In this document: positions 3,165-30,998 of the stretch, piece by piece | Layout of the letters: each line of letters starts with the position of its first letter | How positions within the stretch are numbered: the stretch's first letter is position 1 | Assembly (NCBI GenBank): GCA_030524035.1 | Contig: JAUNHG010000002.1 | Span: forward strand, 62,001 to 126,000 | Reading direction: 5' to 3' | DNA: 64,000 nucleotides | Source of the DNA: Kocuria sp. | Lineage (GTDB): Bacteria; Actinomycetota; Actinomycetes; Actinomycetales; Micrococcaceae | Made by a program: the position numbers and the translations under genes | Notes under the pieces: generated by a model | The model's input: only the letters and a program-made list of their open reading frames with translations | Database searches by the model: none | What the model was told of the DNA's origin: nothing

Positions 3165-3630
3165 GCGATGTACCACGTGCGGTGGTACGCCACGGATTCC
3201 CTGTCCTGACCTGGGAAAACGGCTGTGCCGAGAACCGACCGAGCGCAGCGCGTACCACATGGATCAGGCCGTCGTGGTACGCCGTTCTGCCTGGTCAGCC
3301 CACGTTTTCAGGACGATGTACCACGTGTACCACGTCGATCCGAGACTTTCTATATGCATGTGCGCATGCGCGTGATACCAGAAGCGCGATGGTCGCTGCT
3401 AGGGGGCTCGCCGGAGAATGCTGCCCGGCCCACCACTCTCTCGTCTCTCCCGCGTATATCTAGTCTCTATTTAGTGGTACAAGTGGTACAGGGGGTATAT
3501 ATAGCCCGCCTGACCAGGGCAAATGCCTGTACCACGTCCAAATCTCCACGTGGTACACCCCGTCGTAGAACCCCTCGAAATACCAGCCTGACCAGGGGGG
3601 ATGTGTGTACCACGTCAAGTGGTACACCTC
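3165..3630. repeat. TACCAC/GTGGTA iteron cluster, putative replication origin
   Basis: TACCAC occurs at 3171, 3253, 3319, 3328, 3530 and 3608, and its complement GTGGTA at 3182, 3274, 3474, 3483, 3550 and 3619. That is twelve copies in about 455 bp, most embedded in TGTACCACGT. Some are direct pairs nine bases apart (3319/3328, 3474/3483) and others inverted pairs (3171/3182, 3608/3619). A second motif, GCCTGACCAGG, appears near 3509 and 3587 and inverted near 3289. AT-rich pieces (TATATCTAG near 3456, GTATATATAG near 3495) sit among the boxes and could serve for strand opening. The cluster lies upstream of the SF3 helicase and PolB genes. Calling it an origin is inference from layout. Confidence 0.6.
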
Positions 3631-3639
3631 TGGATACCC

Positions 3640-3830
3640 CCGGAGGGATGATCGGTTCCCTGCTGCGACTGGACTCCCGCTCTGGAGCCCCCCGGCCGGC
3701 CGGTCGGAAGAACTCCCCGGACCCCGACCAAGGGGTTGGGCGGCTCACGCCGCCCGCGGGGGAGTGATCGAGCACGAGAAGCCAGCGGCTCCGTGGGGCA
3801 TGCGCCCCCGGAGCCGCTGTTTCTCATTCC
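3640..3830 (+). other. Possible small transcript ending in a terminator, no ORF
   Basis: No protein gene is supported, but the stretch ends in a good terminator hairpin (3783-3819) and contains an additional GC-rich fold (GGGCGGC/GCCGCCC, about 3737-3753). A terminator here with no coding sequence since 2766 hints at a short RNA made from the iteron region, for instance a replication-control RNA. This is inference only. Confidence 0.3.
3783..3819 (+). terminator. Rho-independent terminator
   Basis: The arms CAGCGGCTCC and GGAGCCGCTG pair, extended inward by GGGG/CCCC, with a TTTCTC tail. Confidence 0.75.
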
Positions 3831-3910
3831 AGACCCAACGCTCTCGACGTGAGCGTCGCTGGAGACCTCCTGGTCTCGCGCGCGACCCCTCCGAGCCCTG
3901 GTTGAGCACC

Positions 3911-3990
3911 AGTCGGGACCCCAGTCGGACCATCAGTCGACATGGAGTCGACTCGTTGCGAAAGACCACTCGGATGACATAGAGTCGAGT
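3911..3990 (+). promoter_or_regulatory. Promoter with GAGTCG operator cluster for the helicase/polymerase unit
   Basis: AGTCG/GAGTCG half-sites occur at about 3911, 3923, 3935, 3945 and 3982, including the perfect palindrome GAGTCGACTC at 3945-3954. A promoter TTGCGA (3956-3961), 18-base spacer, TAGAGT (3980-3985) lies inside the cluster, with the -10 overlapping the last half-site. The same GAGTCGA-N4-TTGCG layout is seen at the - strand promoter near 23,450. This suggests control by a shared dimeric repressor. Confidence 0.55.
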
Positions 3991-4074
3991 TCACGTTCCT
4001 ATTCGATTACGAGACCAATCGGCTTCCCACTCAACTGCCGGCAGGTGCTCGAAGCGATCGAGAAAGACAGCGAC

Positions 4075-5916
4075 ATGACGACTCCTGACGACCCCACGCC
4101 CGTCTTCGACGACGACCTCAGCGTCCCGTCGACCAACCCCGTGGCCGACGCCTTCACCCGCGTCATGGACCACTTCTCCGACGGCGGAGACATCGCCCCG
4201 CAGAACGAGATCGTCACGCTCGCGACCGCGGTGTACCTGGACCTGATCGACCCGGACGACCCGCCGACGCCGCGCCTGCTCGAGAAGCAGCTGCTCGCGA
4301 TCGTCAACGGCGTCTGCAAGGCCGAGAACATGAAGACGAAGGTCGCCACCGAGAAGCTGCAGCTCTCCCGGACGCTGACGTACTGGCAGATCGCCCAGAT
4401 CTTGCTGCGCCTGCACCACGTCATCCGCATCGCGCCCAACGCCAAGGACACCGACCGCGAGTACGACCTGATGGCGATGTACCAGGCCACCGGGCCCGGC
4501 CGCGGCACCTACACCACCAGCGAGGACGACATCCGGACCACGGCCCGCCGGTACAACACGCAGCTGACCCTCAAGGAGTTCGCCGAGGTCCTCGCCGTGC
4601 TCCGCGAGGACAGCCCGCGCCGGCACCAGTGCAGCCACAGAGACCTCATCGCCGTGAACAACGGCGTGTTCCACTACGGCCGCCAGGCCAGGGACGTCCA
4701 CGAGGGCGGCAAGGACTTCCAGCTGGAGCCCAAGTCGCTGGTGCCGTTCGACCCGGCGCTGGTCTTCCTGGCCAAGTGCCACATCGACTACGTCGAGGAC
4801 CCCGACAACCCCGTCATCGTCCACCCCACCGACGGCACCGTCTGGGACATCGAGTCTTGGGTCCGCGAGCTCTCCGACGACGAGGGGATCCCCGAACTGC
4901 TCTGGGAGATCATCGGCGCGATCATCCGGCCGCACGTGAGCTGGGGCAAGACCGCCTGGTTCTACAGCGAGCAGGGCAACAACGGCAAGGGCACGCTGTG
5001 CTCGCTCATGCGCAACCTGTGCGGGCCCCGCTCGCACACGTCGATCCCGCTGAGCGACTTCGGCAAGGACTTCGCGCTCGAGCCGCTGGTACGCGCGAAC
5101 GCGATCATCGTCGACGAGAACGACGTGGGCACCTTCATCGACAAGGCGGCCAACCTGAAGGCGATCGTCACCAACGACGTCATCCAGATCAACCGCAAAT
5201 ACCGGATGCCGATCGCCTACCAGTTCTTCGGCTTCATGGTCCAGTGCCTCAACGAGTTCCCGCGCGTGAAGGACAAGTCCGAGAGCTTCTACCGCAGGCA
5301 GCTGTTCGTGCCCTTCTCCAAGAGCTTCACCGGCATGGAGCGCAAGTACATCAAGGACGACTACCTCCAGCGCCGCGAGGTCCTGGAGTACGCCCTCTGG
5401 TACGTGCTCAACTGCGCCGGCGCGGCCGACCCGGGCAACTACTACCAGCTCTCCGAGCCGGTGGCGACCAAGGAGGTCCTGGCCGAGTACAAGGAGGCCA
5501 ACGATCCCGTGCGCGCCTTCTGGGAGGAGTTCCGCCTGCGGCTGGTGTGGGACCTCGTGCCCTTCACCTTCGCCTACGACCTCTACAAGGCCTGGTTCGC
5601 CGACGTCTCGCCCTCGGGCTCGCCGGTGTCGAACAAGCAGTTCATCACCGACCTCGTGGCGATCGTGCGGGCGGACCCGCTGTGGCACTGCCCGGACAAG
5701 AACAAGAAGGTCCGCCCCGGCCAGATGATGTCGAACCCGGAGACGACGATCGCCGAGTACGAGCTGAAGAAGTGGATGAACCCCCACTACAGCGGCTCGG
5801 ACGCGAAGAAGAAGTCGCAGCCCGTGCTGCAGGCCAACTACAGAGGCCTGCTGAGACACCTCGGCCCCGGCGTCCCGGCCGACGCCGACGACACGACCAC
5901 CGAAGAAGAGGACTGA
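4075..5916 (+). CDS. SF3 (D5/P4-type) replicative helicase
   Basis: This 613-residue protein has a phage/plasmid primase-helicase C-terminal core. Walker A is in SEQGNNGKGT (about residue 300), Walker B in AIIVDEND (about 345), and a later segment with NEFP...DKSESFYRRQLFVPF carries the SF3 sensor Asn and arginine pair. A D5_N-like region precedes the ATPase. I see no archaeo-eukaryotic primase or Toprim motif in the N-terminal 250 residues, so priming may be done elsewhere. The ATG at 4075 (MTTPDDP) is preferred over a GTG at 4045, because the acidic N terminus begins there and the promoter -10 is at 3980. It would unwind the origin and work with the DNA polymerase two genes on. Confidence 0.85.
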   Translation: MTTPDDPTPVFDDDLSVPSTNPVADAFTRVMDHFSDGGDIAPQNEIVTLATAVYLDLIDPDDPPTPRLLEKQLLAIVNGVCKAENMKTKVATEKLQLSRTLTYWQIAQILLRLHHVIRIAPNAKDTDREYDLMAMYQATGPGRGTYTTSEDDIRTTARRYNTQLTLKEFAEVLAVLREDSPRRHQCSHRDLIAVNNGVFHYGRQARDVHEGGKDFQLEPKSLVPFDPALVFLAKCHIDYVEDPDNPVIVHPTDGTVWDIESWVRELSDDEGIPELLWEIIGAIIRPHVSWGKTAWFYSEQGNNGKGTLCSLMRNLCGPRSHTSIPLSDFGKDFALEPLVRANAIIVDENDVGTFIDKAANLKAIVTNDVIQINRKYRMPIAYQFFGFMVQCLNEFPRVKDKSESFYRRQLFVPFSKSFTGMERKYIKDDYLQRREVLEYALWYVLNCAGAADPGNYYQLSEPVATKEVLAEYKEANDPVRAFWEEFRLRLVWDLVPFTFAYDLYKAWFADVSPSGSPVSNKQFITDLVAIVRADPLWHCPDKNKKVRPGQMMSNPETTIAEYELKKWMNPHYSGSDAKKKSQPVLQANYRGLLRHLGPGVPADADDTTTEEED

Positions 5917-5923
5917 TCCGACC

Positions 5924-6157
5924 ATACCCAAGATCGCCAAGGCCATCGCCGAGCTCGCCCGAGCCGTCGTGGACCTCGCCCAGCAGCAGAGCAGGACCTG
6001 CACGGCCCTGACCGACGTGGCGCGCGAGCAGCGGATCACCAACCTCATCGTCCGTTCGCAGATCAGCGCGGACCCCGAGGAGAAGCGGCGGCTCGTGGCC
6101 GAGGCCGAGCGCCGCATGGACGCACCGCGCCGCCGCTCTCCTCACGACCTCCCATAG
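5924..6157 (+). CDS. Small charged helical protein, start uncertain
   Basis: An open frame between helicase and polymerase encodes a charged, helix-prone peptide ending ...AERRMDAPRRRSPHDLP. No ATG, GTG or TTG lies near a ribosome site. The protein-like sequence (IPKIAKAIAELARAVVDLA) starts at an ATA codon, 5924, just after an AGAGGA stretch at the end of the helicase gene. The first conventional start is a GTG at 5969 (62 residues), which cuts off the amphipathic helix. Either an ATA start is used or translation is coupled to the helicase stop. Function unknown. Confidence 0.4.
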   Translation: MPKIAKAIAELARAVVDLAQQQSRTCTALTDVAREQRITNLIVRSQISADPEEKRRLVAEAERRMDAPRRRSPHDLP

Positions 6158-6226
6158 GCCCTGCGCCTCTCGACGACAACTGCATACCGGCCGTGACGGC
6201 CGGCGACGACCGAAAGGCTAAGCACC

Positions 6227-9200
6227 ATGACCACGCAGCGCACCCCCGTCACGGCCGACACGGCGCTCTTCACGTTCTACGACATCGAATCGCTCTCGAA
6301 CGTCTTCACGCTGTGCGCCTACACCCCGCGGCCCGGGCAAGCCGTCGACGCCCTGGAGATCTTCTTCCTCGCCGACGACCCCTCGCTGGCCGCCGCGGTC
6401 GATCCCCAGGCCCTCTACCGGGCGGTGGTCGAGTCCAACCCCGGCCTGCCCGCCGTCAGCGTCCAGCTGTGGAACCTCGGCGGCGAGAAGGGCAGCCTGC
6501 GCCTCGCCGAGCTCATGGGGCTCTCCAACGCCGACCAGGTGTGCGACGGTCGCGGCGGGGACTACCCGGCGGCCCTGCGCCCGGTCTGCGACACCGACGA
6601 CGGGTACGACCCGGCGCAGCACCCGTTCCTGGCCGGCTACAACTCGATGAACTACGACACCGTGATGCTCGCGCTCTTCCTCAACGAGGCGTTCCCGAAC
6701 CCGGGCGGCGGCCAGATGTTCCAGCCGACCACGGCGCGCACGCTGCGCGACCACAACGACAGGCTCTTCTCCGGGGAGCACATCGAGTACATGCCCGGAT
6801 ACCTGGGATGGGACGGCCCCGCCGCCAAGATCCGCAGAGCGATGCTCCACTCGGGCCGCCACCTCGACGTGGCGCGGCTGAACGAGCTGCAGTCCAAGGT
6901 CAGCCTCAAGCGCCTGCTCGGGATGCTCGGCCGCCAGATCAAGGAGTCCGAGAAGCTCAGCCACGACACCACGATCACAGCGGTCGAGGACCTCTACGAG
7001 CTGCTGGCCTACAACGTCTCGGACTGCCTGGGCCTGGCGCAGCTGTTCCGGCACCCGGCGTACGCGAACAACTTCGACCTCAAGGCCGGTCTGCTCGCGC
7101 AGTACGCCGAGACGGTGTTCACCAAGCACGGCTCCGTCCGCAAGGACCGGCTGGCCGTCGACTCGTCGTCGGCGAAGTTCGTGGGCCGGATCCTCGCGCC
7201 CTACGCCTCGCTGGACGACATCGAGGCGGTCTCGTACGTGTACCCCGACCCCGAGGTCGCCAAGGAGCGCGGGATCGAGCCGGTCAACGTGCTCGACGAG
7301 TGCGTGCGCTTCTTCGAGGAGAATGTCGCGCCCGACCCCGCCGCGCACCCCGAGGCGACGCCGGCCCAGCGGGAGGCCCACCGGCAGTTCATGCAGGTCG
7401 TCACGTACTACCGCTCGATCGAGGGGCAGAACTTCAACGACTCCGACGAGTACCGGGACAAGTTCGACCTCCCGGCGAAGTCGCTGCGCGACGTGCCCAA
7501 GACCCCCAACAACGTGCCATACTTCCGGTCCGACGCCTCGCCGTCGTCCTGCTTCGCCACGTTCTCCACCGGAGGCATCCACGGCGCGGAGGCCGACCTC
7601 GCGGTCTTCACCGCCGAGCGGATCGCGCACCTCGAGCAGGACATGATGCTCACGCGCGCGAAGCTCGTCTTCCCCGAGGCCGCCGACTTCGTCGCCGAGG
7701 CCAAGCGCCAGCACGCGGAGCTCGTGCTTCCCGACGGCACCTGCGTCGACAAGCGCCTGGTGCTGCTGGGCTCGGACCCCTCGAAGGTGAAGTACAGGAA
7801 GCCGAAGAAGGACGACCCGGACCAAGCCGAGCAGCTCGCCCGCGCCCAGGCCCAGGTGCCCGACCCGGCGGACCTGCTGGCGACCCAGCGCCCGGAGAGC
7901 GAGAAGCTCGACGTGCGCCTGCCCGACGGCGGCGTCCTGGTCGGCAAGGTCGTGCTGGCCAACAGCACGGCCACCAGCGCCGCCTACCGCGAAGAGCCCG
8001 CGAAGAAGGCACCCTCGCTGTTCACCGCGAAGGAGGACGGGTCCGACAAGCTGCACCCGAAGTTCGCCCGCACCTCGGCCGGGCTGGTGATCCACGAGGA
8101 CTTCACCAGCTACTACCCGAACCTCCTGCGCAACATGCGGGCGTTCTACAACCCCGAGCTGGGGGAGGACCGCTACGCGAAGATCTTCTTCGACAAGGAG
8201 CGCTACAGCCGCGAGATGAAGCGGCCCGGCATCTCGCCCGAGGAGAGGACCCGGCTGAACACGCTGAGGAACGGCACGAAGCTGATCCTCAACTCGGCCT
8301 CAGGCGCGGGCGACGCCGGGCACAAGACCCCGATCCGGATGAACAACCGCATCATCTCGATGCGCATCCTCGGCCAGCTGTTCAGCTGGCGGATCGGGCA
8401 GGCGCAGACGCTGGCCGGCGCGCGGATCATCTCGACGAACACCGACGGCCTCTACTCGGTCGTCGGCGGGGAGAACGGCTTCGACGAGGCGACCAACAAC
8501 CGCGTCCTCCATGAGCAGCAGGCCGCCATCGGCGTCGACATCGAGCCCGAGCTGATGTTCCTCATCAGCAAGGACTCGAACAACCGCCTGGAGATCGAAG
8601 CGCCTGAGCCGGGGCGGTCCGTCGCCGACAGCCCGATCATCGCCGCCGGCGGCGGCACGCTGGCCTGCCACGCGGGCCCGACCCCGACGAAGTCGCTGGC
8701 CCACCCGGCCGTGATCGACTTCGCGCTGGCCCGCTACATGCAGATCGTGGCGAGCAGGGGGGAGGCCGCGCTCTCGGAGCCCTTCGACCCCCGGCTGGGC
8801 CGGAAGGTGATCGAGGAGGCGGTGCTGGAGGACGACCCAATCCGGTCGCTGATGCTGTTCCAGAACGTCATCGCGGCCTCCCGCGGGTCGATCACCTATC
8901 CCTTCTCGGCCGCGCCGATCAACGCCGCCACCGGCGTGGAGTACAGCGACCAGGGTCACGTGTCCAACGTGCGCGACCCCCAGGTGCTCCAGATGGTCAA
9001 CCGCGTCTTCATCGTCCGCGACGGCACCGAGAACGCTCGGAGCCTGCTCAACGCTGGCGCGTGGAAGGTGACCGCGGCCAGCCAGGCCAAGCGCCGCGAG
9101 GACGGGGTCGGCCGGGCCAAGCGCGATCCCGTCGCGCTGGAGGTCCTGCGCCACCACGGCTGGGCGAAGTCCCGCGCCGAGGCCAGCGCCTCCGACGGGC

Positions 9201-9406
9201 TCACGGTCCTGCCCGACGACCAGGACGTCGTCGTCCGCCGGATCAACGCGATCGACCCGACCTGGTCGATGGTCGTCGTCAACGACGACCTGCACCAGCT
9301 GCCCGCCGAGCGGATCGAACGGCTCATCGGCTCGCTCGACCTCGAGGTCTACACCCGGATCCTCGAGGAGACGTTCACCAAGAACTGGATGAACGCCGCG
9401 GCCTGA
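6227..9406 (+). CDS. B-family DNA polymerase with DEDDy proofreading exonuclease
   Basis: This 1,059-residue replicative polymerase has the exonuclease motifs in order: YDIES (about residue 18), YNSMNYD (about 137) and YNVSDC (about 260). Polymerase motifs follow: A, DFTSYYPNLL (about 624); B, KLILNSASGAGD (about 684); C, STNTDGLYS (about 737). Motif C is NTDG rather than DTDS. The second Asp, which binds metal in RB69-type enzymes, is kept. Long insertions lie between the exonuclease and motif A. There is no integrase, intein or terminal-protein motif that I can see. Such polymerases occur in phages and in self-replicating elements such as pipolins. With the SF3 helicase and RecJ-like nuclease it gives the element its own replication set. 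A hairpin after the stop ends the unit. Confidence 0.88.
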   Translation: MTTQRTPVTADTALFTFYDIESLSNVFTLCAYTPRPGQAVDALEIFFLADDPSLAAAVDPQALYRAVVESNPGLPAVSVQLWNLGGEKGSLRLAELMGLSNADQVCDGRGGDYPAALRPVCDTDDGYDPAQHPFLAGYNSMNYDTVMLALFLNEAFPNPGGGQMFQPTTARTLRDHNDRLFSGEHIEYMPGYLGWDGPAAKIRRAMLHSGRHLDVARLNELQSKVSLKRLLGMLGRQIKESEKLSHDTTITAVEDLYELLAYNVSDCLGLAQLFRHPAYANNFDLKAGLLAQYAETVFTKHGSVRKDRLAVDSSSAKFVGRILAPYASLDDIEAVSYVYPDPEVAKERGIEPVNVLDECVRFFEENVAPDPAAHPEATPAQREAHRQFMQVVTYYRSIEGQNFNDSDEYRDKFDLPAKSLRDVPKTPNNVPYFRSDASPSSCFATFSTGGIHGAEADLAVFTAERIAHLEQDMMLTRAKLVFPEAADFVAEAKRQHAELVLPDGTCVDKRLVLLGSDPSKVKYRKPKKDDPDQAEQLARAQAQVPDPADLLATQRPESEKLDVRLPDGGVLVGKVVLANSTATSAAYREEPAKKAPSLFTAKEDGSDKLHPKFARTSAGLVIHEDFTSYYPNLLRNMRAFYNPELGEDRYAKIFFDKERYSREMKRPGISPEERTRLNTLRNGTKLILNSASGAGDAGHKTPIRMNNRIISMRILGQLFSWRIGQAQTLAGARIISTNTDGLYSVVGGENGFDEATNNRVLHEQQAAIGVDIEPELMFLISKDSNNRLEIEAPEPGRSVADSPIIAAGGGTLACHAGPTPTKSLAHPAVIDFALARYMQIVASRGEAALSEPFDPRLGRKVIEEAVLEDDPIRSLMLFQNVIAASRGSITYPFSAAPINAATGVEYSDQGHVSNVRDPQVLQMVNRVFIVRDGTENARSLLNAGAWKVTAASQAKRREDGVGRAKRDPVALEVLRHHGWAKSRAEASASDGLTVLPDDQDVVVRRINAIDPTWSMVVVNDDLHQLPAERIERLIGSLDLEVYTRILEETFTKNWMNAAA

Positions 9407-9583: not shown

Positions 9584-10012
9584 ATGTCCCAGTCAGTTCT
9601 CCCCGTCCGATCCAGTGATCCGGGCACCTCCTACGAAGCCGCGGTGAAGGCCGCGCTCGGCGCGTCCCGCGTCCGGCCCGTCGTCCTCGACATCATCCGC
9701 GAGCAGGGCCCGCTCACCCACGACGAGCTCATCGCGGCCTACCACATGAAGGTCGTGATGGAGCCCGACACTCCGCGCTCCTCGGAGTCGGGCATTCGCA
9801 CCAGGCTGAAGGAGCTCGCGCACGAAGGACTGGTGGCCGCCGACGAGGAGGACGGGTTCTCCAACTTCGGCAACGCCGCCAAGCGGTGGGTCGCCGTCGA
9901 CCCGGACGACCCGAGCTTCGTCTACGACCCCAACGCCATCGCCGCATACATCGACGACGAGGACATCGTTGGCTTCGGCGGCCTCCTCGACGACGAGGCA
10001 GCCGAGGACTGA
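9584..10012 (+). CDS. Winged-helix-like hypothetical protein
   Basis: The protein has 142 residues. The start is taken at the ATG after CGAGAGGCA because the upstream in-frame extension runs through a terminator hairpin and promoter. The middle part (RPVVLDIIREQGPLTHDELIAAY ... GIRTRLKELAHEGLVAADEEDG) has the helix-turn-helix-wing pattern of proteins that decide host or replication DNA binding. The C terminus is very acidic (DDEDIVG...DDEAAED). First gene of an operon with a nuclease and nucleotide-pool enzymes. Exact role unknown. Confidence 0.6.
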   Translation: MSQSVLPVRSSDPGTSYEAAVKAALGASRVRPVVLDIIREQGPLTHDELIAAYHMKVVMEPDTPRSSESGIRTRLKELAHEGLVAADEEDGFSNFGNAAKRWVAVDPDDPSFVYDPNAIAAYIDDEDIVGFGGLLDDEAAED

Positions 10013-10351
10013 GTGCCGATGCCGAGGAAGCGAGACCAGCGCGAGAGGGCCGTCGAGCGCTACCTGCTGACGGAGTGCCGCAGGCACGGCTTCTTCTGCC
10101 TGAAATTCGTGTCGCCGGCCCGCGGCGGAGTCCCCGACCGGATCGTCATCGCCCCGACGGGGACCGTCTTCGTCGAGGTCAAGCGGCCCGGCGGCGACCT
10201 GGAGAAGCGCCAGCGGGTGATGCACGCCAAGATGCGCCGCTTCGGGGCCGAGATCCACGTCGTGGACGACGAGCCCAGCATCGACGCCTTCATCGCCCAC
10301 GTGCTCGGCACCGGCCGAGCCGACCCCGACCAGCAGAGAGCAGCCTCATGA
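10013..10351 (+). CDS. VRR-NUC domain nuclease
   Basis: This short protein of about 110 residues consists of little but a VRR-NUC fold: RERAVERYLLTECRRHGFFCLKF, then GGVPDRIVIAPTGTVFVEVK with the PD...ExK active-site residues (Asp about 41, Glu/Lys about 54-56), then ending in a helix. Stand-alone VRR-NUC proteins in phages act as structure-specific or Holliday-junction nucleases. A GTG start abuts the previous stop, and an ATG (MPRKRDQ) two codons later is equally possible. The stop overlaps the next start as ATGA, showing translational coupling. Confidence 0.85.
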   Translation: MPMPRKRDQRERAVERYLLTECRRHGFFCLKFVSPARGGVPDRIVIAPTGTVFVEVKRPGGDLEKRQRVMHAKMRRFGAEIHVVDDEPSIDAFIAHVLGTGRADPDQQRAAS

Positions 10352-10758
10352 CCGCCACGGCCACAGACACCACGACCCCGCACGCGTACGAGACCAAGGA
10401 CTCGGGATCGCGCGTCCGCACCGCCTCCGGCATGCAGCGCGAGGTGAAGACGGGCCAGCCCCGCTTCGACCTCCTCGTGCCTCTGACGGTGCCGTACCCG
10501 GAGCAGCTGCTCACACGGACGGCGGCGCTCGTCGAGCGCGGCGCGCGCAAGTACGAGTCCCGTGACTGGGAACAGGCGAGCACCGAGGCCGAGGCCGAGG
10601 AGTTCCGGGCCAGCGCCTTCCGCCACTTCATGCAGTGGATGTGCGGGGAGGACGACGAGGACCACGCCGCGGCCGTCGTCTTCAACGTGCTCGCCGCCGA
10701 GACGACGGCCACGGTGATGGCGCGCCGCGCCGCCGAGACCGAGGAGGCGGCCAGATGA
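10348..10758 (+). CDS. dATP/dGTP diphosphohydrolase-like (MazG-type) protein
   Basis: This 136-residue protein resembles phage dATP/dGTP diphosphohydrolases (DUF5664): PRFDLL early, then a helix with ALVERGARKYESRDWEQ (GAxKYxxRNW pattern), then FRHFMQWMCGEDDEDHAAAVVFNVLAAE (the RHxxAxxxGED...HxAHxxxNxLAL pattern). The charged Glu/Asp positions would bind metal for removal of pyrophosphate from purine dNTPs. It overlaps its neighbours at both ends by ATGA, in an operon with a nuclease and later an HD phosphohydrolase. This suggests control of the nucleotide pool during element replication. Confidence 0.7.
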   Translation: MTATATDTTTPHAYETKDSGSRVRTASGMQREVKTGQPRFDLLVPLTVPYPEQLLTRTAALVERGARKYESRDWEQASTEAEAEEFRASAFRHFMQWMCGEDDEDHAAAVVFNVLAAETTATVMARRAAETEEAAR

Positions 10759-11579: not shown

Positions 11580-13448
11580 ATGACCACGACCATCGCGCCG
11601 CGGCAGCCGGCCCCCGCGCCGATCACACTCAAGCCCTACCAGCAGCAGATCCACGACTTCCTCGTCGGCCGCCCCTTCGCCGGGGCCTGGCTCGGCGTCG
11701 GGGCCGGGAAGACCCTCAGCACGCTCAGCGTCCTGCAGACCGTCCGCCCCATGGGCCACATCCTCGTCGTCGCACCGATCGCCATCGCGCGCTCGACGTG
11801 GCTCGACGAGATCGACAAGTGGGGTTTCCCGATCCGCACGAAGTCGCTGATCGTGAACGAGAACGACAAGAAGCTGTCGAAGGCCAAGCGCCTCGAGCGC
11901 TTCGGCAAGGTCTTCTCCGACCCGCCCACGATGTACTTCGTCAACCAGGAGCTGCTCACCCAGCCCTCCCAGGGCGCACGACTTCTCCAGCTGACCGGTG
12001 ACCCCGCCGGCGATGTCGTCGCCGCGTCGATCTCGCCCGAGGCCGCGCAGCTGCACGGTCTCATCGGGACGATCGGGCCGATGGCCCAGGAGCAGCTGGT
12101 CGAGCACTTCCTGCAGCAGGCCACTGGGCAGCCTGGAGGCAAGGCTCCCACCAAGACCGCGGTCAAGGAGGCGATCAGCGAGCTCGTCGCCCGCGGCGCG
12201 CTGGAGCGCGAGACCCACGACTGCCGCAGCTGCGGCGGCGACGGCTGCGCGCAGTGCCGCTACGGCCTCGTCGACCAGATGCCGATCCAGTCCATCAACG
12301 GGCAGGACACGCTCATCTGGCCGTTCCAGACGGTGATCATCGACGAGTCGCAGGGCTTCAAGTCCCACAGCAGCGCACGGTTCAAGGCGCTGAAGGCTGT
12401 CCGCCCGGCGATCACGCGGCTCATCGAACTGACCGGCACCCCGAGCCCGAACGGGCTGCACGACCTGTGGAGCCAGATCTACCTGCTCGACCAGGGCGAG
12501 GCGCTGGGGAAGAACATCACCGAGTTCCGCAACCGGTGGTTCATTCCCAAGATGGTCCCCGGCACCACGACGCCGGCGAAGTGGATCCCGACCCCGAACG
12601 CCGAGGCGGAGATCCACGAGGCCATCAAGCACCTGGTGATGAGCGCGCAGAACACCAACCTCAACCTGCCGCCGCTCACCATCCAGGACGCGAGCGTCAC
12701 CCTCCCGCCGGACCTGATGCAGGCCTACAAGGAGTTCAAGCGCGACCTCGTGCTCGACCTCGTGCGGACCTACCAGGACGAGGACGGCAAGCTCACGCAG
12801 AGCGTCGAGGCGATCGTGGCCGAGAACCAGGCGGTGCTCACCAGCAAACTCATGCAGTTCGCCTCGGGCACGCTCTACACGGCCGACCCGGACGACCCGA
12901 GCACGAAGGGCCAGTACGAGGTCATCCACGACAAGAAGCTCGAGATGGCCGAGTACCTGGTGCGCAACAGCGGCGGCGACCCCGTCCTGATCGCCTACCA
13001 CTTCCGCTCGGACCTGGAGCAGCTGCTCGCGCGCTTCAAGAAGGCGGGCATCGACGCGCAGGTCTTCGACGGCTCGCGCGAGATGGTCCGCCGGTGGAAC
13101 GCCAAGCGCGTCCCGGTGATGCTGCTGCACCCCGCGGCGGCAGGCCACGGCCTGAACCTGCAGGACGGTGGCTCGACGATGATCTGGTACACGCTGCCGT
13201 TCTCGCTCGAGCACTACCTGCAGACGAACGGCCGGCTGTACCGCACGGGGCAGACGAAGCCCGTGGTCATCCACCGCATCGTCGCCAAGGGCACCCAGGA
13301 CGAGCGGATGCCCGGCGTGCTCGCCGAGAAGCAGCAGGTCCAGGACGACCTCATCTCGGCCGTCTCCGGCGAGGTCCTGCTCCTCGCCGCGCTGGAGGAG
13401 GAGATCCAGGACGACCTCAGCGACCTATGGGTCTCCGAGCGGATCTGA
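11580..13448 (+). CDS. Snf2-type SF2 ATPase with inserted zinc-binding module
   Basis: This 622-residue ATPase has motif I GVGAGKT (39-45), DESQ as the DEAH-box equivalent (about 255), SAT-like LTGTPSPNG, and the C-terminal RecA half with HPAAAGHGLNLQ and QTNGRLYRTGQTKPVVIHR (motifs V and VI, arginine finger). Between motifs Ia and II there is an insertion of about 110 residues. It contains a winged-helix-like stretch and a CRSCGGDGCAQC zinc ribbon (about 214-228), so DNA recognition may be built into the motor. Phage relatives of this type remodel replication forks or recombination intermediates. An AGAGAGGAGG ribosome site precedes the ATG. Confidence 0.85.
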   Translation: MTTTIAPRQPAPAPITLKPYQQQIHDFLVGRPFAGAWLGVGAGKTLSTLSVLQTVRPMGHILVVAPIAIARSTWLDEIDKWGFPIRTKSLIVNENDKKLSKAKRLERFGKVFSDPPTMYFVNQELLTQPSQGARLLQLTGDPAGDVVAASISPEAAQLHGLIGTIGPMAQEQLVEHFLQQATGQPGGKAPTKTAVKEAISELVARGALERETHDCRSCGGDGCAQCRYGLVDQMPIQSINGQDTLIWPFQTVIIDESQGFKSHSSARFKALKAVRPAITRLIELTGTPSPNGLHDLWSQIYLLDQGEALGKNITEFRNRWFIPKMVPGTTTPAKWIPTPNAEAEIHEAIKHLVMSAQNTNLNLPPLTIQDASVTLPPDLMQAYKEFKRDLVLDLVRTYQDEDGKLTQSVEAIVAENQAVLTSKLMQFASGTLYTADPDDPSTKGQYEVIHDKKLEMAEYLVRNSGGDPVLIAYHFRSDLEQLLARFKKAGIDAQVFDGSREMVRRWNAKRVPVMLLHPAAAGHGLNLQDGGSTMIWYTLPFSLEHYLQTNGRLYRTGQTKPVVIHRIVAKGTQDERMPGVLAEKQQVQDDLISAVSGEVLLLAALEEEIQDDLSDLWVSERI

Positions 13449-17231: not shown

Positions 17232-17816
17232 GTGCCGAACCTCATCGAATCCGTCAGCTGGCACCGCCTCGCCCATGAGGCCAGGAGCGCAGAGCCCAAC
17301 GCCGCCCACCTCGCGCTGGCCCGCTGGGAGCGGATACTCCTGGCCAGGCCCGAGCCCGGGTGGCTGAAGGTCGTCACGCAGAACGTCGACGGCCTCCACG
17401 CGCGCGCCGGGTCCCGAGACGTCCTGGAGGTCCACGGCTCGATCCTCCGGGCCAAGCGCCTGGGCAAGGTCGAGACCTTCGAGTACGAGACGACTCCCGA
17501 CGACCCCCGTGCCCCGGAGGCCCCGAACGGGTCGAGGCGGACGAGGCCCGACGTCGTGCTCTTCGGCGAGCGGCCGCGGCGCATGCGCGAGGCGACCCAG
17601 GCCGTGTTCGACGCCGACCTCGTCGTCTTCGCGGGCACCTCGGGCCGGGTCTGGCCCGTCGCGGGGCTGCTCGAGGTCGCCAACGAATCCCAGACTCCCG
17701 CGCTCCTGCTCAACCAGGAGGAGTGGGACCACGGCGAGTTCCAGATCGCCGTCCTCGACGACGTGCTTGCGCTCGATGAGCTCGTGCCGCAGGAACCCAC
17801 CGAGGAAGTCGCATGA
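17232..17816 (+). CDS. Divergent Sir2-like protein lacking the N-terminal NAD-loop motif
   Basis: Product of 194 residues. The centre carries sirtuin signatures: PNAAHLALARWE, VVTQNVDGLHARAGS (TQNxDxLH) and EVHGS with the catalytic His, then RPDVVLFGE and VFAGTSGRVWPVAGL (GTS). But the protein starts right where the GAGIS...PxFR Rossmann segment should already have ended, and the zinc-binding cysteines are missing between HGS and RPDVV. The GTG start has a strong AAGGAGG site, so this is the natural start rather than a mis-call. It may be a remnant, a partner-binding form or a changed enzyme. ATGA overlap with the next gene. Confidence 0.65.
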   Translation: MPNLIESVSWHRLAHEARSAEPNAAHLALARWERILLARPEPGWLKVVTQNVDGLHARAGSRDVLEVHGSILRAKRLGKVETFEYETTPDDPRAPEAPNGSRRTRPDVVLFGERPRRMREATQAVFDADLVVFAGTSGRVWPVAGLLEVANESQTPALLLNQEEWDHGEFQIAVLDDVLALDELVPQEPTEEVA

Positions 17817-22775: not shown

Positions 22776-23330
22776 TCAGCCGACCGCGGGCTCCTCTGCC
22801 TCGACGGTCTGCTCCACGGCCTGCTCGGCCTGGGCGGTCTGCTCGGGGGCCGCGGCCTGCGACTCCTTCGCCGCCTTCTGGGCCTCCTTGGCCGCCTTCA
22901 TGGAGGCGAACTGGTTGTCCAGGGTGTTCGCGTCGACCTTGAACTCGGAGGCCTCGACCGACTTGGTGTTGACCACCAGGCCGGTGCCGCGCGAGGCGGG
23001 CATCACGTTGCCCTTGAAGCCGTAGACGGTGCCGACCGTCTCGCCGGCCTTGTTGAGCAGCGGCTCCTTGTTCGGGCCGGCGGCCTTGACGATCTCCTCC
23101 ATCTGGCCGACCGAGTACGGCGCGGTGTTGGCGAAGCGCTCCTTGCCGTCTGGGCCGGTCACGCGCTCGGACTTCAGGTGCAGGTTGTTCTGCTCCGGGC
23201 CGCGCTTGTCGCGGTGGTCGATCTGGATGTCGGCGTAGTGCGACTTGCCGTCTTTGGTCGCGCCGTTGTCGTAGACCTTGGCGATGAGGTTGACCCCGGT
23301 CATCGCGCCCTTGCCCTTGAGAAGTGCCAT
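22776..23330 (-). CDS. Small transfer-region protein, paralogue of the 22686 gene
   Basis: Product of 185 residues. Start MALLKGKG is chosen because AAAGGAAGAGATC is a clear ribosome site; an ATG 16 codons upstream (MADLSIRQ) lacks one. The compact N-terminal beta domain (TGVNLIAKVYDNG...ADIQIDHRDKRG...NLHLK) is followed by a VG.(V/M)YGF(K)G element and a long Ala/Glu/Gln coiled tail. It lies just downstream of the relaxase gene with its own promoter. Possibly an accessory DNA-processing or regulatory protein. Unrecognised family. Confidence 0.6.
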   Translation of the reverse strand: MALLKGKGAMTGVNLIAKVYDNGATKDGKSHYADIQIDHRDKRGPEQNNLHLKSERVTGPDGKERFANTAPYSVGQMEEIVKAAGPNKEPLLNKAGETVGTVYGFKGNVMPASRGTGLVVNTKSVEASEFKVDANTLDNQFASMKAAKEAQKAAKESQAAAPEQTAQAEQAVEQTVEAEEPAVG

Positions 23331-23431
23331 GATCTCTTCCTTTCGTCGTTCCGCCTGCCTGATCGACAGGTCGGCCATGATCAGTCACATCGTCCGAGCA
23401 AGACCTGGGAGTGCCTGTCGAACTGATCTCT

Positions 23432-23471
23432 ACACTAATACTGTATAGAGCACTCCGCAACCACTCGACTC
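23432..23471 (-). promoter_or_regulatory. Promoter with GAGTCGAGTG operator
   Basis: Read on the - strand: GAGTCGAGTG (23471-23462), TTGCGG -35 (23460-23455), 17-base spacer, TAGTGT -10 (23437-23432). The order GAGTCGA-N4-TTGCG is identical to the promoter before the SF3 helicase. It would drive the 185-residue gene. Confidence 0.55.
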
Positions 23472-23489
23472 ATCTTTTTTCTCGTTTGT

Positions 23490-25766
23490 CTACTCGCGCT
23501 GACTGGAGTCGGACAGGCCGGTCGGCTCCTGCTCGGCCTCCTGGGCTACATCGGCGCTGGCCACGGCGGCGTCGATCCGCGCCTGGACGCGCACCACGAG
23601 GCCGGAGTCGAGCGAGGTGGCCCTGGACCGGCGCAGCTGCTCGGCCTGCTCCCTTTCCTCGCGCAGCTCCGCGATCCTCGAGCGCAGGACCGGCGACGCG
23701 CCTGCGTCCTGGGCCGCAAGCTCGCGCGACAGCCTGGTCATCGCTGCCACGTCGTCGACCGGGAGGTCGGCGATCGCCTCGGACTGGCCCGACTGGTCGA
23801 GGTACTCCATCGCCGCGAGCAGCAGCCTGCGGCGCTCGGCCGCGGCGTCGGAGTAGGCCCGGCGGGCCCGCGCACCGATCTCGACGTCGGTGACGAAGTC
23901 GTAGCCCAGGTGGTGCAGGTCCAGCGCCTTGACCTCGTCGAACGGGTGCGGCGTACCGGCCTCGATCGTCAGCTCGGCCCGGACCGGCTCGGAGCCGTCG
24001 CCGCCGGCAGTGCGCCCCTGCTCGGGCCCTCCGGCCACGAGGACCAGCCCCGAATCGGCCAGCTCCGTGCGCAGCTCGTCGAGGCGCTCGTCGTAGACCT
24101 GCTTCATGGTCGCGATCCGCGAGTCGAGCACCGCCCGGCCCGCCTTGCCCTCGGTCAGGTGCCGTCCGCCGGGCTGGTCGTAGATCTCGCGGCCCAGCCG
24201 TTCGGCCTGGTCCGCGTCCTTCATGCGCTGCAGGGAGGCGTCCTTGCGCAGGGCCATGAGCGAGAGCAGCCGCTGGCCGTACTCGGCGACCTGCTGCTGC
24301 CGCTCGTACCACTGCCCGACGTCGCCGACGAAGGGCAGGAAGTGCTGGTACTTGCTCATCACCCTCCGGTGCCAGTCCTCCTCGTGGCGGTAGAAGTCGT
24401 AGAGCGGCCGGGAGTCCTCCTCGGCCACGTGGGCCTTATCCGCCCGCTCCCACTGCCGCGCCAGGTCGCGGTAGGCGCTGGCCTTGGACTTGTGGTGCTG
24501 CAGGCGGGAGGCGTAGCTGCGCAGCCGGAAGCCGAACGAGACGATGTCGTCCTCTGCGCCGCTGTCCTGCTCCTGGCGCTCGGCGGCCAGCACCGCCATC
24601 TGGGCGTAGTCCATGCCCATGACCTCGAGCATCGGGGTGCGCACCCGCAGCTCCTGCTCGGGCACGGCGCGCAGCATCTGGTAGACGCCGTTGACCGCCC
24701 GCTCGGTGATCTGGTCCCGCCCCGAGTCCACCAGGCGCTGCCACTGGTCGGGGGAGAGCCCCTCGGCCTCGCGGCGCTGGTTGGCGTAGTCGACGACCTT
24801 CTCCATGGCCTCCGGCAGGGGCGAGCCCGGCCGCTCGAGCTGCTCGGCGACCAGCTCGGAGACGAGCTGGTTCGCCTTGCGCATGCGCAGGTCGTTGGAG
24901 CCGGCGCGCCACAGCGTCCGGTCGGCGGGCAGGCACGCGAGCAGGAACTGGGGGAGGGCCTCGGCGCGCATGCGGTCGTGGGCCCAGCGCTTGATGAAGG
25001 TGGTGACGTTCCGGCGCTCGTACCCGACGGCGCTGGACAGGTGGGCGATGGCCTGCTTCTCGTCCAGCCAGGCGTCCACTCCGCGGCGCAGCCGCGACTT
25101 GTGGCGGTCCAGCAGCTTGCCGCGCTGGGTGCCGTCCTTGGCCAGCTGGCCCCGCCCGGCGTCGACCATCGCCAGGTGGCAGTGCACGTGCTCGGTGTCG
25201 ACCTGGATCACCCCGACGTAGCGCAGGTCGTCGAAGCCGCTGGTGCCCGAGCCCATCCGCTCCAGTCCGTGCATGATCGCCATGCGCAGCTTCATCTGGT
25301 CGATGTGGCCCCAGTAGTCCCCGCGGCCCTCGCAGTGGAAGTCCCTGCCGACGATGCCGTGCCTCTTCAGGTACGCCTCGTCGAACGACAGGACCGTCTT
25401 GAGCACGGTCTTGCCGCTCTCGAAGTGGCGCTGGATGTCCTTGCTGGCCGCCCGCAGTTGCTCGTCGGACAGGGAGACCGAGCCGTACCCGAACGCGACG
25501 CCGCCGTCGCCCTGCGCCTGGCGCATCGCCGTCTTGGCGGCCGTCCTCGAAGTCCCGGCCCGCTCGACGGCGCTCTCGCGGGCCATGTAGCGCAGGATGA
25601 AGTCGTCGGTACGCAGCCGCTGGATCGGCGCGAGCGACTCCGTCGCCTGCTCGCGCGCCATGTACCGGGTGACGTAGTCCCCGGGCGTGCCTCCGCGGGA
25701 GCCCTTCCCGCCGGACAGCGGCACCGAGTACTCGTTCACGATGACCACCGACTGCTTTAGCCCCAT
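23490..25766 (-). CDS. MobP-like conjugative relaxase
   Basis: Product of 758 residues. The N terminus has the pattern of MobP relaxases: SRGGTPGDYVTRYMAR, then KTVLSFDEAYLKRHGI, then YVGVIQVDTEHVHCHLAMVD, in which HVHCH (about residue 190-198) gives the metal-binding His triad. The nicking tyrosine is probably one of the early Tyr residues (YVTRYM). The C-terminal 450 residues are helical and charged, with RE/ER-rich coiled segments but no helicase or primase motif. It would nick the element's oriT and lead the strand into the recipient cell. Start ATG follows GATGAGGAGAC. The coupling ATPase is not in the window. Confidence 0.82.
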   Translation of the reverse strand: MGLKQSVVIVNEYSVPLSGGKGSRGGTPGDYVTRYMAREQATESLAPIQRLRTDDFILRYMARESAVERAGTSRTAAKTAMRQAQGDGGVAFGYGSVSLSDEQLRAASKDIQRHFESGKTVLKTVLSFDEAYLKRHGIVGRDFHCEGRGDYWGHIDQMKLRMAIMHGLERMGSGTSGFDDLRYVGVIQVDTEHVHCHLAMVDAGRGQLAKDGTQRGKLLDRHKSRLRRGVDAWLDEKQAIAHLSSAVGYERRNVTTFIKRWAHDRMRAEALPQFLLACLPADRTLWRAGSNDLRMRKANQLVSELVAEQLERPGSPLPEAMEKVVDYANQRREAEGLSPDQWQRLVDSGRDQITERAVNGVYQMLRAVPEQELRVRTPMLEVMGMDYAQMAVLAAERQEQDSGAEDDIVSFGFRLRSYASRLQHHKSKASAYRDLARQWERADKAHVAEEDSRPLYDFYRHEEDWHRRVMSKYQHFLPFVGDVGQWYERQQQVAEYGQRLLSLMALRKDASLQRMKDADQAERLGREIYDQPGGRHLTEGKAGRAVLDSRIATMKQVYDERLDELRTELADSGLVLVAGGPEQGRTAGGDGSEPVRAELTIEAGTPHPFDEVKALDLHHLGYDFVTDVEIGARARRAYSDAAAERRRLLLAAMEYLDQSGQSEAIADLPVDDVAAMTRLSRELAAQDAGASPVLRSRIAELREEREQAEQLRRSRATSLDSGLVVRVQARIDAAVASADVAQEAEQEPTGLSDSSQRE

Positions 25767-25799
25767 GTCTCCTCATCCCTTCCGCCCCGTGGATGCGCA

Positions 25800-25834
25800 G
25801 GGCCCCGGCCGCTGTCCTCCAGCGACCGGGGCCC
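25800..25834 (-). terminator. Hairpin between the upstream transfer genes and the relaxase
   Basis: GGGCCCCGG and CCGGGGCCC pair, with a further CGCTG/CAGCG inside. It sits in the short gap before the relaxase start, so it may attenuate relaxase expression. Confidence 0.55.
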
Positions 25835-25864
25835 GCGTTTGCTCATCGCTCCTGCTCGGATCAC

Positions 25865-26890
25865 TCAGGACCCCAGGCCGTGCTCGCCGTCCTCGCCGAA
25901 GTCGAGGTCGGCGGCGCGGCGCGAGGCCTCGCGCTTGCGCTCCTCGAGCGTCGGGGCAGGCGCGGCCTGCTCCTGCTGCGCCCGGTGCTGCTCGCGCTCG
26001 GCGTCCGACTCGTCCTGCCCGAAGTCCAGGTCCTGGCCGACCTCTCGGCGGTCCTCCCGGTCCTCGACCTCGTCGGCGTGCAGCGCCTGGGCCACGCGCT
26101 GGTGGTAGAGGTGCTCCGGCGTGCCCTCGGTGCTCTCCAGCTCGGCCTGGTACCGCTCGCGCTCGGCGGCGATCTCGGCCTCCACCTGCTGCAGCTGGGT
26201 CCCCACGCCGGCGGCGGGCTCCTGCTCCTGCTCCGCCTCGCGCGGCAGGCCCTCGGCCTGCGCGACCAGATCGAGCTCGTCCTCGGTGAACAGCGAGTTG
26301 ATCGCGTCCGAGCGGGCCCGTAGACCGCGCTCGTCGACGACCACCTCGGCCTGGGCCCCGTCCTTCGAGTGGTCGGCGAAGTACTCGCTGAGGTCGTAGC
26401 CGGAGGACTCCAAATCGATCTCGAGGTCGGCGATGCGGTGCACGTTCATGAACACCACGGGGGCGTCGGACTGCTGCTCCGACGGGGTGAGCACGAGGGC
26501 GTCCACCGTCGCGGGCAGCTCCCACTCGATGCCCGTCACCTGCTCGGGCACCGCGAACGAGCGGCTGAAGTATCCCTTGCCCACCAGGGCGGCGAGCTGC
26601 TCGTCGTCGAACTCGTAGTAGGCGTCGACCTTCTCGCCCTGCCCGTGCGAGTAGGTCACCTGGGTGATCCCGTACGGCAGCGGCTCGGCCGGGGTGATCG
26701 AGCGCAGCTCGCCGATCACGTGCAGGTACGGCCGGTGGTTCTCCTCCTTGCCCCGGTGCTTGAGCTCGACGGAGTCGACCAGCACGCCGACCTGGGCCTC
26801 CAGCCCGTCGTACCGGTGCGCCTCGACGCCCCGCTCGCGCAGGGCCCGGTCGGCCCACACATCGTTCATCATCAGTCCAGCGGTGCGCAT
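25865..26890 (-). CDS. Transfer-operon protein with acidic coiled C terminus
   Basis: Product of 341 residues starting MRTAGLMMND. Its ATG overlaps the preceding stop by one base. Residues 1-200 form a mixed alpha/beta domain with no cysteine and no membrane segment. The second half is Gln/Glu/Arg-rich (EAEQEQEPAAGVGTQLQQVEAE and beyond), typical of coiled coil or disorder. Position between a membrane protein and the relaxase suggests a relaxosome or T4SS accessory role. Not recognised. Confidence 0.6.
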   Translation of the reverse strand: MRTAGLMMNDVWADRALRERGVEAHRYDGLEAQVGVLVDSVELKHRGKEENHRPYLHVIGELRSITPAEPLPYGITQVTYSHGQGEKVDAYYEFDDEQLAALVGKGYFSRSFAVPEQVTGIEWELPATVDALVLTPSEQQSDAPVVFMNVHRIADLEIDLESSGYDLSEYFADHSKDGAQAEVVVDERGLRARSDAINSLFTEDELDLVAQAEGLPREAEQEQEPAAGVGTQLQQVEAEIAAERERYQAELESTEGTPEHLYHQRVAQALHADEVEDREDRREVGQDLDFGQDESDAEREQHRAQQEQAAPAPTLEERKREASRRAADLDFGEDGEHGLGS

Positions 26891-27417
26891 CACTTGCTCC
26901 TCTTGTTCGTGGTCTTCTTGGTCCGGCGGTTGGCACGGGGGGCCGGGGCGCTCGGGGCCTGCGCCTCGGCGCGGGCGTCGCGGACCGCCTGGATCCGGCG
27001 GGTGCTCCAGCCCCACATCGCGCGCATGGCTGCGATCTCCCCGGCGGCCAGGACGATGACGAGGAACGCCAGCGGCGCGATCCACATGGCGATGGTCCCG
27101 GCCATGGTCAGCTGTCCGCCCGCCGCGCCCGACTGCTGGTGCAGCCACGCGCCGAGCATCGGGATCAGGACCATCGCGGTGCTGAGCGCCAGCAGGTAGT
27201 CCGCGATGAGCACGACCGACCGGAAGAACACCGCCCAGATCACCACCGGGAGCCCGTCCGAGCTCTTCTCCGGGGCCAGGCGGCGCAGCGCGCCTCCCAG
27301 TCGGGAGGGCCTGCGCTCCTTCTTCTCCTTGGTCGGCTTCTTCGCTGCCGGATCGGTCGTCTCGCGGGCCTCGCCCTCGATCGGTGCGTCGGTCTTGTCC
27401 AGGGTCTGGGTCGTCAT
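26890..27417 (-). CDS. Two-TM transfer membrane protein
   Basis: Product of 175 residues. A charged N terminus with a KKPTKEKKERRPSR stretch is followed by two hydrophobic segments (about residues 60-85 and 105-130), then a basic tail (ANRRTKKTTNKRSK). It is probably an inner-membrane part of the mating channel. Start ATG follows GAAGGACGAGACG. Confidence 0.6.
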   Translation of the reverse strand: MTTQTLDKTDAPIEGEARETTDPAAKKPTKEKKERRPSRLGGALRRLAPEKSSDGLPVVIWAVFFRSVVLIADYLLALSTAMVLIPMLGAWLHQQSGAAGGQLTMAGTIAMWIAPLAFLVIVLAAGEIAAMRAMWGWSTRRIQAVRDARAEAQAPSAPAPRANRRTKKTTNKRSK

Positions 27418-27470
27418 CGTCTCGTCCTTCGTCGTTGTCGTCGTTCGTGTCGTGTTCGTGGACCGCGGGA

Positions 27471-29020: not shown

Positions 29021-29094
29021 TGACCCTCAACTCGCTGTTCGACTCGAATACCAGTACAACTCTATCAAGAAGATGACTCGAAAGGGAGTCGGAG
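29021..29094 (-). promoter_or_regulatory. GACTCG-rich internal promoter region
   Basis: GACTCG occurs at 29041 and 29075 and GAGTCG at 29086, with another at 29109 inside the end of the upstream gene. On the - strand a TAGAGT hexamer, the same -10 as at the helicase promoter, lies between them. I see no convincing -35 for it. Confidence 0.4.
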
Positions 29095-30809: not shown

Positions 30810-30839
30810 GGTGCACGCCCCTTCATTCGTCTTGTCCTC

Positions 30840-30900
30840 GTATACGACTCCAAGTCTATCTCGAATGCGAGTCACTGACGACTCTGTCACGAGTCGAGAA
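30840..30900 (-). promoter_or_regulatory. GACTC/GAGTC-rich promoter region
   Basis: CGACTC at 30845 and 30879, GCGAGTC about 30868 and GAGTCG at 30891 lie upstream of the 30809 start. A TAGACT hexamer (complement about 30854-30859) could be the -10. Same half-site as at 3.9, 9.5, 23.4, 29.0, 36.3 and 41.2 kb. Confidence 0.4.
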
Positions 30901-30923
30901 GGCGGCGAGTGGCTCCGGACATG

Positions 30924-30963: not shown

Positions 30964-30998
30964 ATCGCCTTCTCAGGCCTCTGGTCCCTCCACCCGGG

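Follow-up and report, generated by a model that had tools for sequence, protein, structure and literature searches.

The stretch of DNA analyzed here, referred to as the window, comprises 64,000 nucleotides (positions 62001-126000 of contig JAUNHG010000002.1) from a 2.3-Mb actinobacterial genome assigned to Kocuria sp., and it includes the right-hand part of an element of ~84 kb. Near its left edge lie an array of twelve short boxes that constitutes a candidate replication origin (3170-3625), a gene for a superfamily 3 (SF3)/D5-type helicase that we propose to be the initiator (4045-5916, forward strand), and a gene for a divergent B-family DNA polymerase (PolB) with 3′-5′ exonuclease motifs (6227-9406, forward strand). 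An initial annotation had noted that twelve boxes, an SF3 helicase, and a proofreading-type PolB follow one another, and this succession is borne out by box enrichment, family matches, and invariant motifs. The RecJ-like, VRR-NUC, and Snf2 neighbors and the serine integrase that it reported are likewise real, as described below.

The array consists of TGTACCAC boxes arranged in six pairs. The heptamer GTACCAC occurs at 12 sites between positions 3170 and 3625 and at 16 sites in the whole window, compared to 3.7 ± 2.0 expected from dinucleotide shuffles, none of which reached 16. With arrowheads for box orientation and numbers for spacing, the layout reads > 12 < 70 > 22 < 44 > 9 > ~147 < 9 < 46 > 21 < 57 > 12 <, which is mirror-symmetric about position ~3400. 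When 400,000 random arrays were put through an ordered mirror test, not one equaled the combined symmetry of orientation and position, and 1.6 in 10,000 equaled the symmetry of position alone. The same box order and short spacings are kept in nearly all the other loci identified. Between the window and Nocardiopsis, identity is 0.84-0.86 inside the boxes, whereas outside them it is 0.51-0.54, compared to 0.48-0.53 for shuffled sequence, and the majority of invariant columns in the origin alignment are box bases. We consider this conservation of spacing among relatives to be stronger evidence for a putative origin than the symmetry statistics.

The two half-arrays flank a central spacer (3334-3473) that, from a reading of its sequence, is a candidate opening region. 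The spacer has a GC content of 57%, with CTATAT on one side and CGCGTATATCTAGTCTCTATTTA on the other, and it holds a 24-bp alternating purine-pyrimidine run, TATATGCATGTGCGCATGCGCGTG. A long tract of this type is clear in the window and in loci L004, L014, L021, L046, and L047, but its absence from Streptomyces and Nocardiopsis led us to reject it as a general feature of these origins. A secondary motif, CTGACC(A/T)GGG, is positioned beside box pairs (3207-3598; copies at about 3207, 3290, 3510, and 3589) and is evident from both enrichment and alignment. The sequence CTGACCAG was found 3 times versus 0.05 expected, and five copies of the secondary motif also occur in L046, where the boxes differ.

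The helicase encoded downstream of the array, whose true start may be the ATG at position 4075, matches DUF5906 (E 3e-17), Pox_D5 (4e-5), and the P4-family model TIGR01613 (3e-41), all above curated cut-offs. Its layout comprises a collar (residues 72-250), an AAA+ ATPase, and a C-terminal winged helix (about 485-606), with no recognizable primase domain. The nearest solved structure is the primase-helicase of SaPI5 (7ola), which is matched with a profile E of 9e-59 and a Foldseek E of 5e-10. Comparison of residues 72-440 with 7ola yields a Z score of 10.9, as befits a D5-type collar and AAA+ core. The C-terminal domain resembles the winged helices of Cdc6/Orc1 with a Z score of 5.1, a middling value that could reflect a common arrangement.

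Variant boxes offer a clue to the protein that reads the array. Two lineages carry similar arrays in which the box is replaced by TGTATCAA (L014/L023) or by TGTCGC (L046), and these variants arose separately, in unrelated lineages. Of 623 helicase columns, only three (293, 529, and 555) hold one residue throughout the TACCAC lineages, the remote L047 among them, and depart from it in both lineages with variant boxes. In an AlphaFold2 model, column 529 caps the predicted recognition helix and column 555 lies in the wing of the winged helix. This covariation is a pointer rather than proof. Nevertheless, the putative roles of the array as origin and of the helicase as initiator are well supported by sequence comparison, and the evidence favors a helicase that probably binds the boxes through its C-terminal winged helix.

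Alternatively, the array might be an operator or a partition site (centromere) recognized by another DNA-binding protein of the element. It is located upstream of the promoter of the helicase-PolB operon, and large iteron arrays can serve as centromeres. However, the array ends ~330 bases before the predicted promoter, and both its symmetry and the covariation of its boxes with residues of the winged helix implicate the helicase. Moreover, the AlpA/AlpC-like pair of the element is ~8 kb away, whereas the AlpA repeats described for the CGP3 element of Corynebacterium glutamicum read TTAAnnG and sit beside alpAC (PMC4446434). We therefore regard an operator or centromere function as improbable.

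Sequence comparison predicts a sigma70-like promoter (TTGCGA-N18-TAGAGT) followed by a conserved leader at positions 3957-4044 on the forward strand, directly preceding the helicase gene. A core segment of the leader, CGGCTTCCCAC (4020-4030), is almost invariant in all 23 main-clade loci. An Rfam search with the leader returned no match, and its consensus fold is a weak hairpin of only five pairs with little covariation. In several relatives, the promoter spacer contains the palindrome CATTCGAATG. The initial annotation had proposed a promoter controlled by GAGTCG, and part of that proposal stands: three copies of this hexamer occur within the 160 bases upstream of the helicase gene, and the relatives of the Arthrobacter type, those in Brevibacterium, and L014/L023 have one to three copies at the corresponding position. 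None is present there in the Streptomyces and Kribbella loci, and only one of three Nocardiopsis loci has a single copy. This patchy occurrence indicates a lineage-specific detail of one promoter, and a general regulon is not apparent, with 72 copies found in the window versus 74 expected.

The polymerase has gone largely unrecognized. Pfam and NCBIfam searches gave no match, consistent with the label "hypothetical protein" that it bears in plasmid records, and the sole match in family libraries is PHROG_1252, "DNA polymerase" (E 7e-25). Its motifs are nevertheless readily assigned: the exonuclease residues D19/E21, N139-D144, and Y262-D266, and the polymerase motifs A (D625), B (K685), and C (D740). 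Exo I-III and motifs A, B, and C do not vary among ten divergent relatives, even where identity is as low as 36%. The letters of motifs B and C are atypical (KLILN[SA]ASG and TNTDG), and the family alignment reveals a conserved CFATFSTGGIHGAE block at residues 442-455. A family profile matches the PolBs of crAss-like phages (P 96.7, E 4e-10) and of an Achromobacter phage (P 84, E 8e-6). In contrast, hhalign found no match to the phi29 and T4 polymerases, and a profile search of the PDB was also negative.

The initial annotation had likened the element to a pipolin, a type of integrative or circular mobile element that encodes its own PolB (PMC7385651). This likeness is not supported. Motifs A and B are separated by 60 residues and motifs B and C by 52, compared to 134 and 72 in phi29, so there is no room for the terminal protein region insertions TPR1 and TPR2 of the phi29 type. 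The closest polymerases found, those of crAss-like phages and an Achromobacter siphophage, belong to another PolB branch. In addition, the element differs from pipolins in having an SF3 initiator, an iteron origin, and transfer genes of the MobL and type IV secretion system (T4SS) types. As far as comparison with the phi29, crAss-like, and Achromobacter siphophage enzymes goes, motif spacing and nearest relatives thus argue against a pipolin-type PolB.

A scan of genome contigs for the polymerase identified 23 actinobacterial loci, with PolB proteins that are 60-87% identical, from at least seven named genera; these include Arthrobacter/Pseudarthrobacter, Streptomyces, Kribbella, Nocardiopsis, Brevibacterium, and Promicromonospora. 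The helicase gene is adjacent to the PolB gene in all 23, and the RecJ, VRR-NUC, and Snf2 genes nearly always follow the same order; the exceptions are L017, whose RecJ gene falls outside the fetched flank, and L023, whose frames are broken. Thus, the gene order that the initial annotation had suggested seeking elsewhere does recur. The helicase-PolB order is also found in the deeper relatives L046, L047, and the plasmid pGKT2, and is kept even at 36% identity. A MobL relaxase (69-85% identical) is encoded in 23 of 23 PolB-bearing genomes, and in 20 of these the MobL and PolB genes share a contig, at a distance of about 42-92 kb. Three plasmid records contain the PolB gene, namely those of Streptomyces NBC_01454, Rhodococcus fascians pGS01, and Gordonia sp. 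KTR9 pGKT2, and all three also encode MobL. In the Streptomyces plasmid, genes for a TnsA-like protein, a Mu-type transposase, and an ATPase replace the RecJ gene ahead of the module (L039 193-3952), and pGKT2 holds a similar TnsA/TniB set.

These distributions bear on whether a prophage or phage replication module was captured by chance. The PolB palm is distantly related to the polymerases of crAss-like phages and an Achromobacter siphophage, and the helicase, likewise distantly, to phage and satellite helicases; the "phage replicon" of the initial annotation is only half borne out. However, a tblastn search of 50,697 phage records yielded no homologue of this PolB. A profile search recovered two IMG/VR contigs that carry it. 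One (IMGVR_UViG_3300021431_004083, or G083, which contributes L047/L049) is 251 kb long, has a GC content of 43% in the part read first, and encodes homologues of MobL, the VirB4-like protein, TopoIII, the actin-like protein, RecJ, the helicase, and PolB at 35-56% identity, along with VRR-NUC and Snf2 proteins. Given its MobL and transfer gene homologues, this contig is most likely a conjugative element that was filed as a virus. On the second contig, a 35-kb fragment, MobL was not found. MobL is encoded together with the module throughout the 23 genomes, the three plasmid records, and G083, and the link to conjugation genes persists between deeply diverged members, which argues against a recent capture; we judge chance acquisition from a phage to be very unlikely.

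The initial annotation had also considered that homologues of the helicase-PolB pair might be confined to phages, with no circular form; at the family level, the elements resembling integrative conjugative elements (ICEs) and the circular plasmids contradict this. The co-occurrence of the module with MobL and T4SS genes across distant members indicates that replication and transfer modules have been together for a long time. As judged from sequence comparisons, we are dealing with a conserved module that has a characteristic origin architecture and set of motifs, that has long been inherited with MobL/T4SS genes, and that also occurs on circular plasmids. Its hosts include numerous soil bacteria, which carry it in chromosomes as well as on transmissible plasmids. 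No close relatives of the integrase of this element turned up among the 23 genomes, which suggests that family members swap their integration modules. The family appears to be rare, since none of 395 evenly drawn genomes of the phylum yielded a member.

The element itself has a GC content of ~70% within a host of ~57-58%, and GC content falls at both of its ends. Its left end is inside mutM at contig position 20908 and its right end is at window position 42948, where the junction core GGGGAGTCGGG (42948-42958) is identical to the core at contig position 20908. The displaced native 3′ end of mutM remains as a remnant to the right of this core (about 42945-43091). As a consequence, mutM (contig positions 20086-21069) is split by the element yet restored with a high-GC 3′ end that the element supplies. 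The right end also encodes the serine integrase (41275-42723, reverse strand; PF00239 and PF07508). A tyrosine-recombinase-like protein (PF00589) is encoded at 37120-38310.

One block of the genes for conjugation, T4SS-like by family matches, lies at 22776-36197 (reverse strand). This block includes a tail-lysozyme-type wall hydrolase (31377-33917, reverse strand) and the relaxase (23490-25766, reverse strand), which is a MobL protein (PF18555, E 6e-103) rather than the MobP type named in the initial annotation. The VirB4-like and TopoIII genes of the element precede the window start. The VirB4-like match is weak on its own, and it is conserved together with other transfer genes in G083. No coupling protein was identified among the transfer genes of the element. 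Additional genes inside the element encode an SSB, an actin-like protein, and a UmuC-type polymerase. The GC step, the mutM junctions, the integrase, and the MobL/T4SS genes together identify the element as an ICE, which is probably transmissible by mating and was evidently acquired from a higher-GC source. Thus, the view of the initial annotation that a conjugative element carries an iteron origin, an SF3 helicase, and a proofreading-type PolB as one conserved unit is supported.

Conjugative elements are usually thought to borrow the replicase of their host. We consider it quite probable that this element is instead a self-initiating replicon, in which the helicase recognizes the symmetric origin and the PolB performs much of the synthesis on the excised circle. 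The serine integrase would excise the ~84-kb element from mutM, and the SF3/D5 helicase would use its C-terminal winged helix to bind the twelve TGTACCAC boxes, a step suggested by the architecture of the array, the covariation, and known relatives. Because the array is mirror-symmetric, two hexamers loaded on the half-origins would face each other, and they might then open the central region. The PolB, presumably as main replicase, would work with the SSB of the element to copy the exposed strands, extending primers of host origin, and RecJ, VRR-NUC, Snf2, and TopoIII would process and resolve intermediates. Such a circle could be amplified after excision and could keep replicating, in the donor as well as in the recipient of a mating, while relying little on the replicase of the host.

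Several observations weigh against this proposal. No primase was detected by Pfam among the scanned proteins of the element and its relatives, a scan that took in part of the small open reading frames (ORFs); primers would thus probably come from the host primase or from transcripts. In a stricter symmetry test with a tolerance of 7 bases, 8 of 12 boxes were matched, which about 9% of random arrays also reach; the result is unremarkable because the outer pairs are offset by 14 bases from the inner pairs. A GC-skew switch was looked for at the origin and is absent. Covariation between boxes and helicase is based on just two independent box changes. The AlphaFold2 models are also of limited help, since the ATPase part of the helicase is poorly modeled and the PolB model (19 alignment rows; predicted local distance difference test score of 54.6) is too poor to use. 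Finally, a search for the boxes in pGKT2 and pGS01 found none, and pGKT2 encodes DnaB-N-like and RarA-like proteins; its annotation lists no other obvious initiator, on a scan for such proteins that was only partial.

Another possibility is that the boxes and helicase constitute a SaPI-like replicon for which the host polymerase does most of the copying, and that the PolB, RecJ, VRR-NUC, Snf2, and UmuC-type proteins act in repair or in making the second strand once single-stranded DNA has been transferred. A precedent exists in replicons of the SCCmec (staphylococcal cassette chromosome mec) type, where the primase-polymerase that accompanies the initiator helicase lacks proofreading and elongation is thought to depend on a host polymerase (PMC7581432). 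The lack of a detected primase, the UmuDC-like and RecJ genes, and the arrival of conjugative DNA as a single strand are all compatible with this possibility. In contrast, the position of the PolB gene directly after the helicase gene, even at 36% identity, is easier to reconcile with a replicative pair than with a repair gene. Versions of the module with the SF3 helicase alone were not seen among the loci, although such versions would be missed because the loci were found by searching with PolB. On balance, we consider an auxiliary role for the PolB unlikely and favor a self-initiating replicon.

The proposed initiator resembles proteins of staphylococcal elements. In the Rep proteins of Staphylococcus aureus pathogenicity islands (SaPIs) and in Cch2 of SCCmec, C-terminal domains bind iterons, and the origin repeat of Cch2 reads TACCACTTAAT (PMC7581432). 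These systems, including the SaPI5 primase-helicase, share with the element a D5/SF3-type helicase whose C-terminal DNA-binding domain (predicted here) accompanies an iteron origin, and the Cch2 repeat contains TACCAC, as do the boxes described above. Unlike its staphylococcal counterparts, however, the helicase of this element has no recognizable primase, its gene is preceded by a 12-box mirror-symmetric array, and its partner is a PolB with exonuclease motifs, encoded like the helicase on a conjugative element. The PolB likewise shares the palm motifs DxxSYYP, K...N, and NTDG and similar A-B and B-C spacings with the "NTDG" polymerases of crAss-like phages and the Achromobacter siphophage. 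The resemblance extends over only ~150 residues at ~25-28% identity, and the PolB of this family is ~300 residues longer, has the conserved CFATFSTGGIHGAE block and large insertions, and resides in conjugative elements rather than virions.

Distant members of the family include pGKT2 and pGS01, which share PolB (37% identity), MobL, and Snf2 with the element. Plasmid pGKT2 additionally shares the DHH protein, the helicase (51%), TopoIII, and the actin-like protein. Both differ in being circular plasmids with a PolB of ~1300 amino acids and without recognized boxes; pGS01 has PolB and Snf2 genes with no adjoining helicase gene, and pGKT2 encodes an extra, marginal Prim-Pol-like protein of a kind not found in the element. 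Plasmid pGKT2, which bears genes for the degradation of RDX (hexahydro-1,3,5-trinitro-1,3,5-triazine), has been moved by mating to other genera and was retained over 100 generations (PMC5640721), in line with autonomous replication. In C. glutamicum, the "cryptic prophage" CGP3 excises, circularizes, and amplifies ~10-fold, and its AlpA/AlpC proteins have homologues on pGKT2 (PMC4446434). At the level of the whole genome, a C. glutamicum control gave matches to both MobL and the PolB family phrog_1252, and CGP3 may be a conjugative element of this family.

These comparisons raise the broader possibility of a widespread, hitherto undescribed actinobacterial family of self-transmissible elements with their own helicase-PolB replisome and a mirror-symmetric, SV40-like two-hexamer origin. 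This family would include pGKT2, the IMG/VR "virus," and probably CGP3, and its members would be largely independent of the host replicase. We hold the chances of this extended proposal to be roughly even. We found no description of the module in open-access papers on ICEs and PolB, MobL, pGKT2, or CGP3, a provisional result given that subscription papers and most preprints lay outside the search. The ICEs of Actinobacteria were surveyed in 2011 with known Rep families as the target (PMC3218068), and the passages searched in a 2020 survey of PolBs do not mention such elements (PMC7544198).

If the proposal is correct, the movement of such elements between distant Actinobacteria, whose replication machineries differ, would be easier to understand, since each element brings an initiator, an origin, and a replicative polymerase of its own. 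Alongside casposons and pipolins, the family would then form a new branch of mobile elements that encode a PolB. A candidate for the replication system of the RDX-degrading plasmid pGKT2 would be at hand, and a number of large "prophages" and "viral contigs" might prove to be conjugative replicons. Thanks to the symmetric origin and the covariation between boxes and helicase, the mechanism can be tested directly with a small replicon.

The remaining genes of the module are all on the forward strand. The RecJ-like DHH nuclease (1-1338) is a full-length protein of 641 amino acids with a RecJ_OB domain, whose gene starts 587 bases before the window. Between this gene and the origin are a conserved CPBP-type intramembrane protease (1358-2179) and, adjoining the origin, a small protein that is conserved across loci and has no family match (2356-2766). 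A small ORF between the helicase and polymerase genes (5969-6157) has homologues in several loci. Downstream of the PolB gene are a small predicted DNA-binding protein (9587-10012; phrog_32341, E 2e-12), the VRR-NUC nuclease (10013-10351; PF08774 just under the cut-off, phrog_93 with E 3e-25), a dATP/dGTP diphosphohydrolase-like protein (10348-10758; PF18909, E 2e-13), and the Snf2-family helicase (11580-13448), a conserved module member identified by a family match.

Other cargo is suggested by two further observations. A SIR2-family protein encoded at 17232-17816 is perhaps related to defense, and UmuD-like and UmuC-type (IMS) genes at L024 12529-14251, located on the element ~26-27 kb to the left of the window, suggest an SOS-linked mutagenic polymerase. 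Beyond the element, the chromosomal stretch at 53000-56000 has an unusually low GC content (0.45-0.48).

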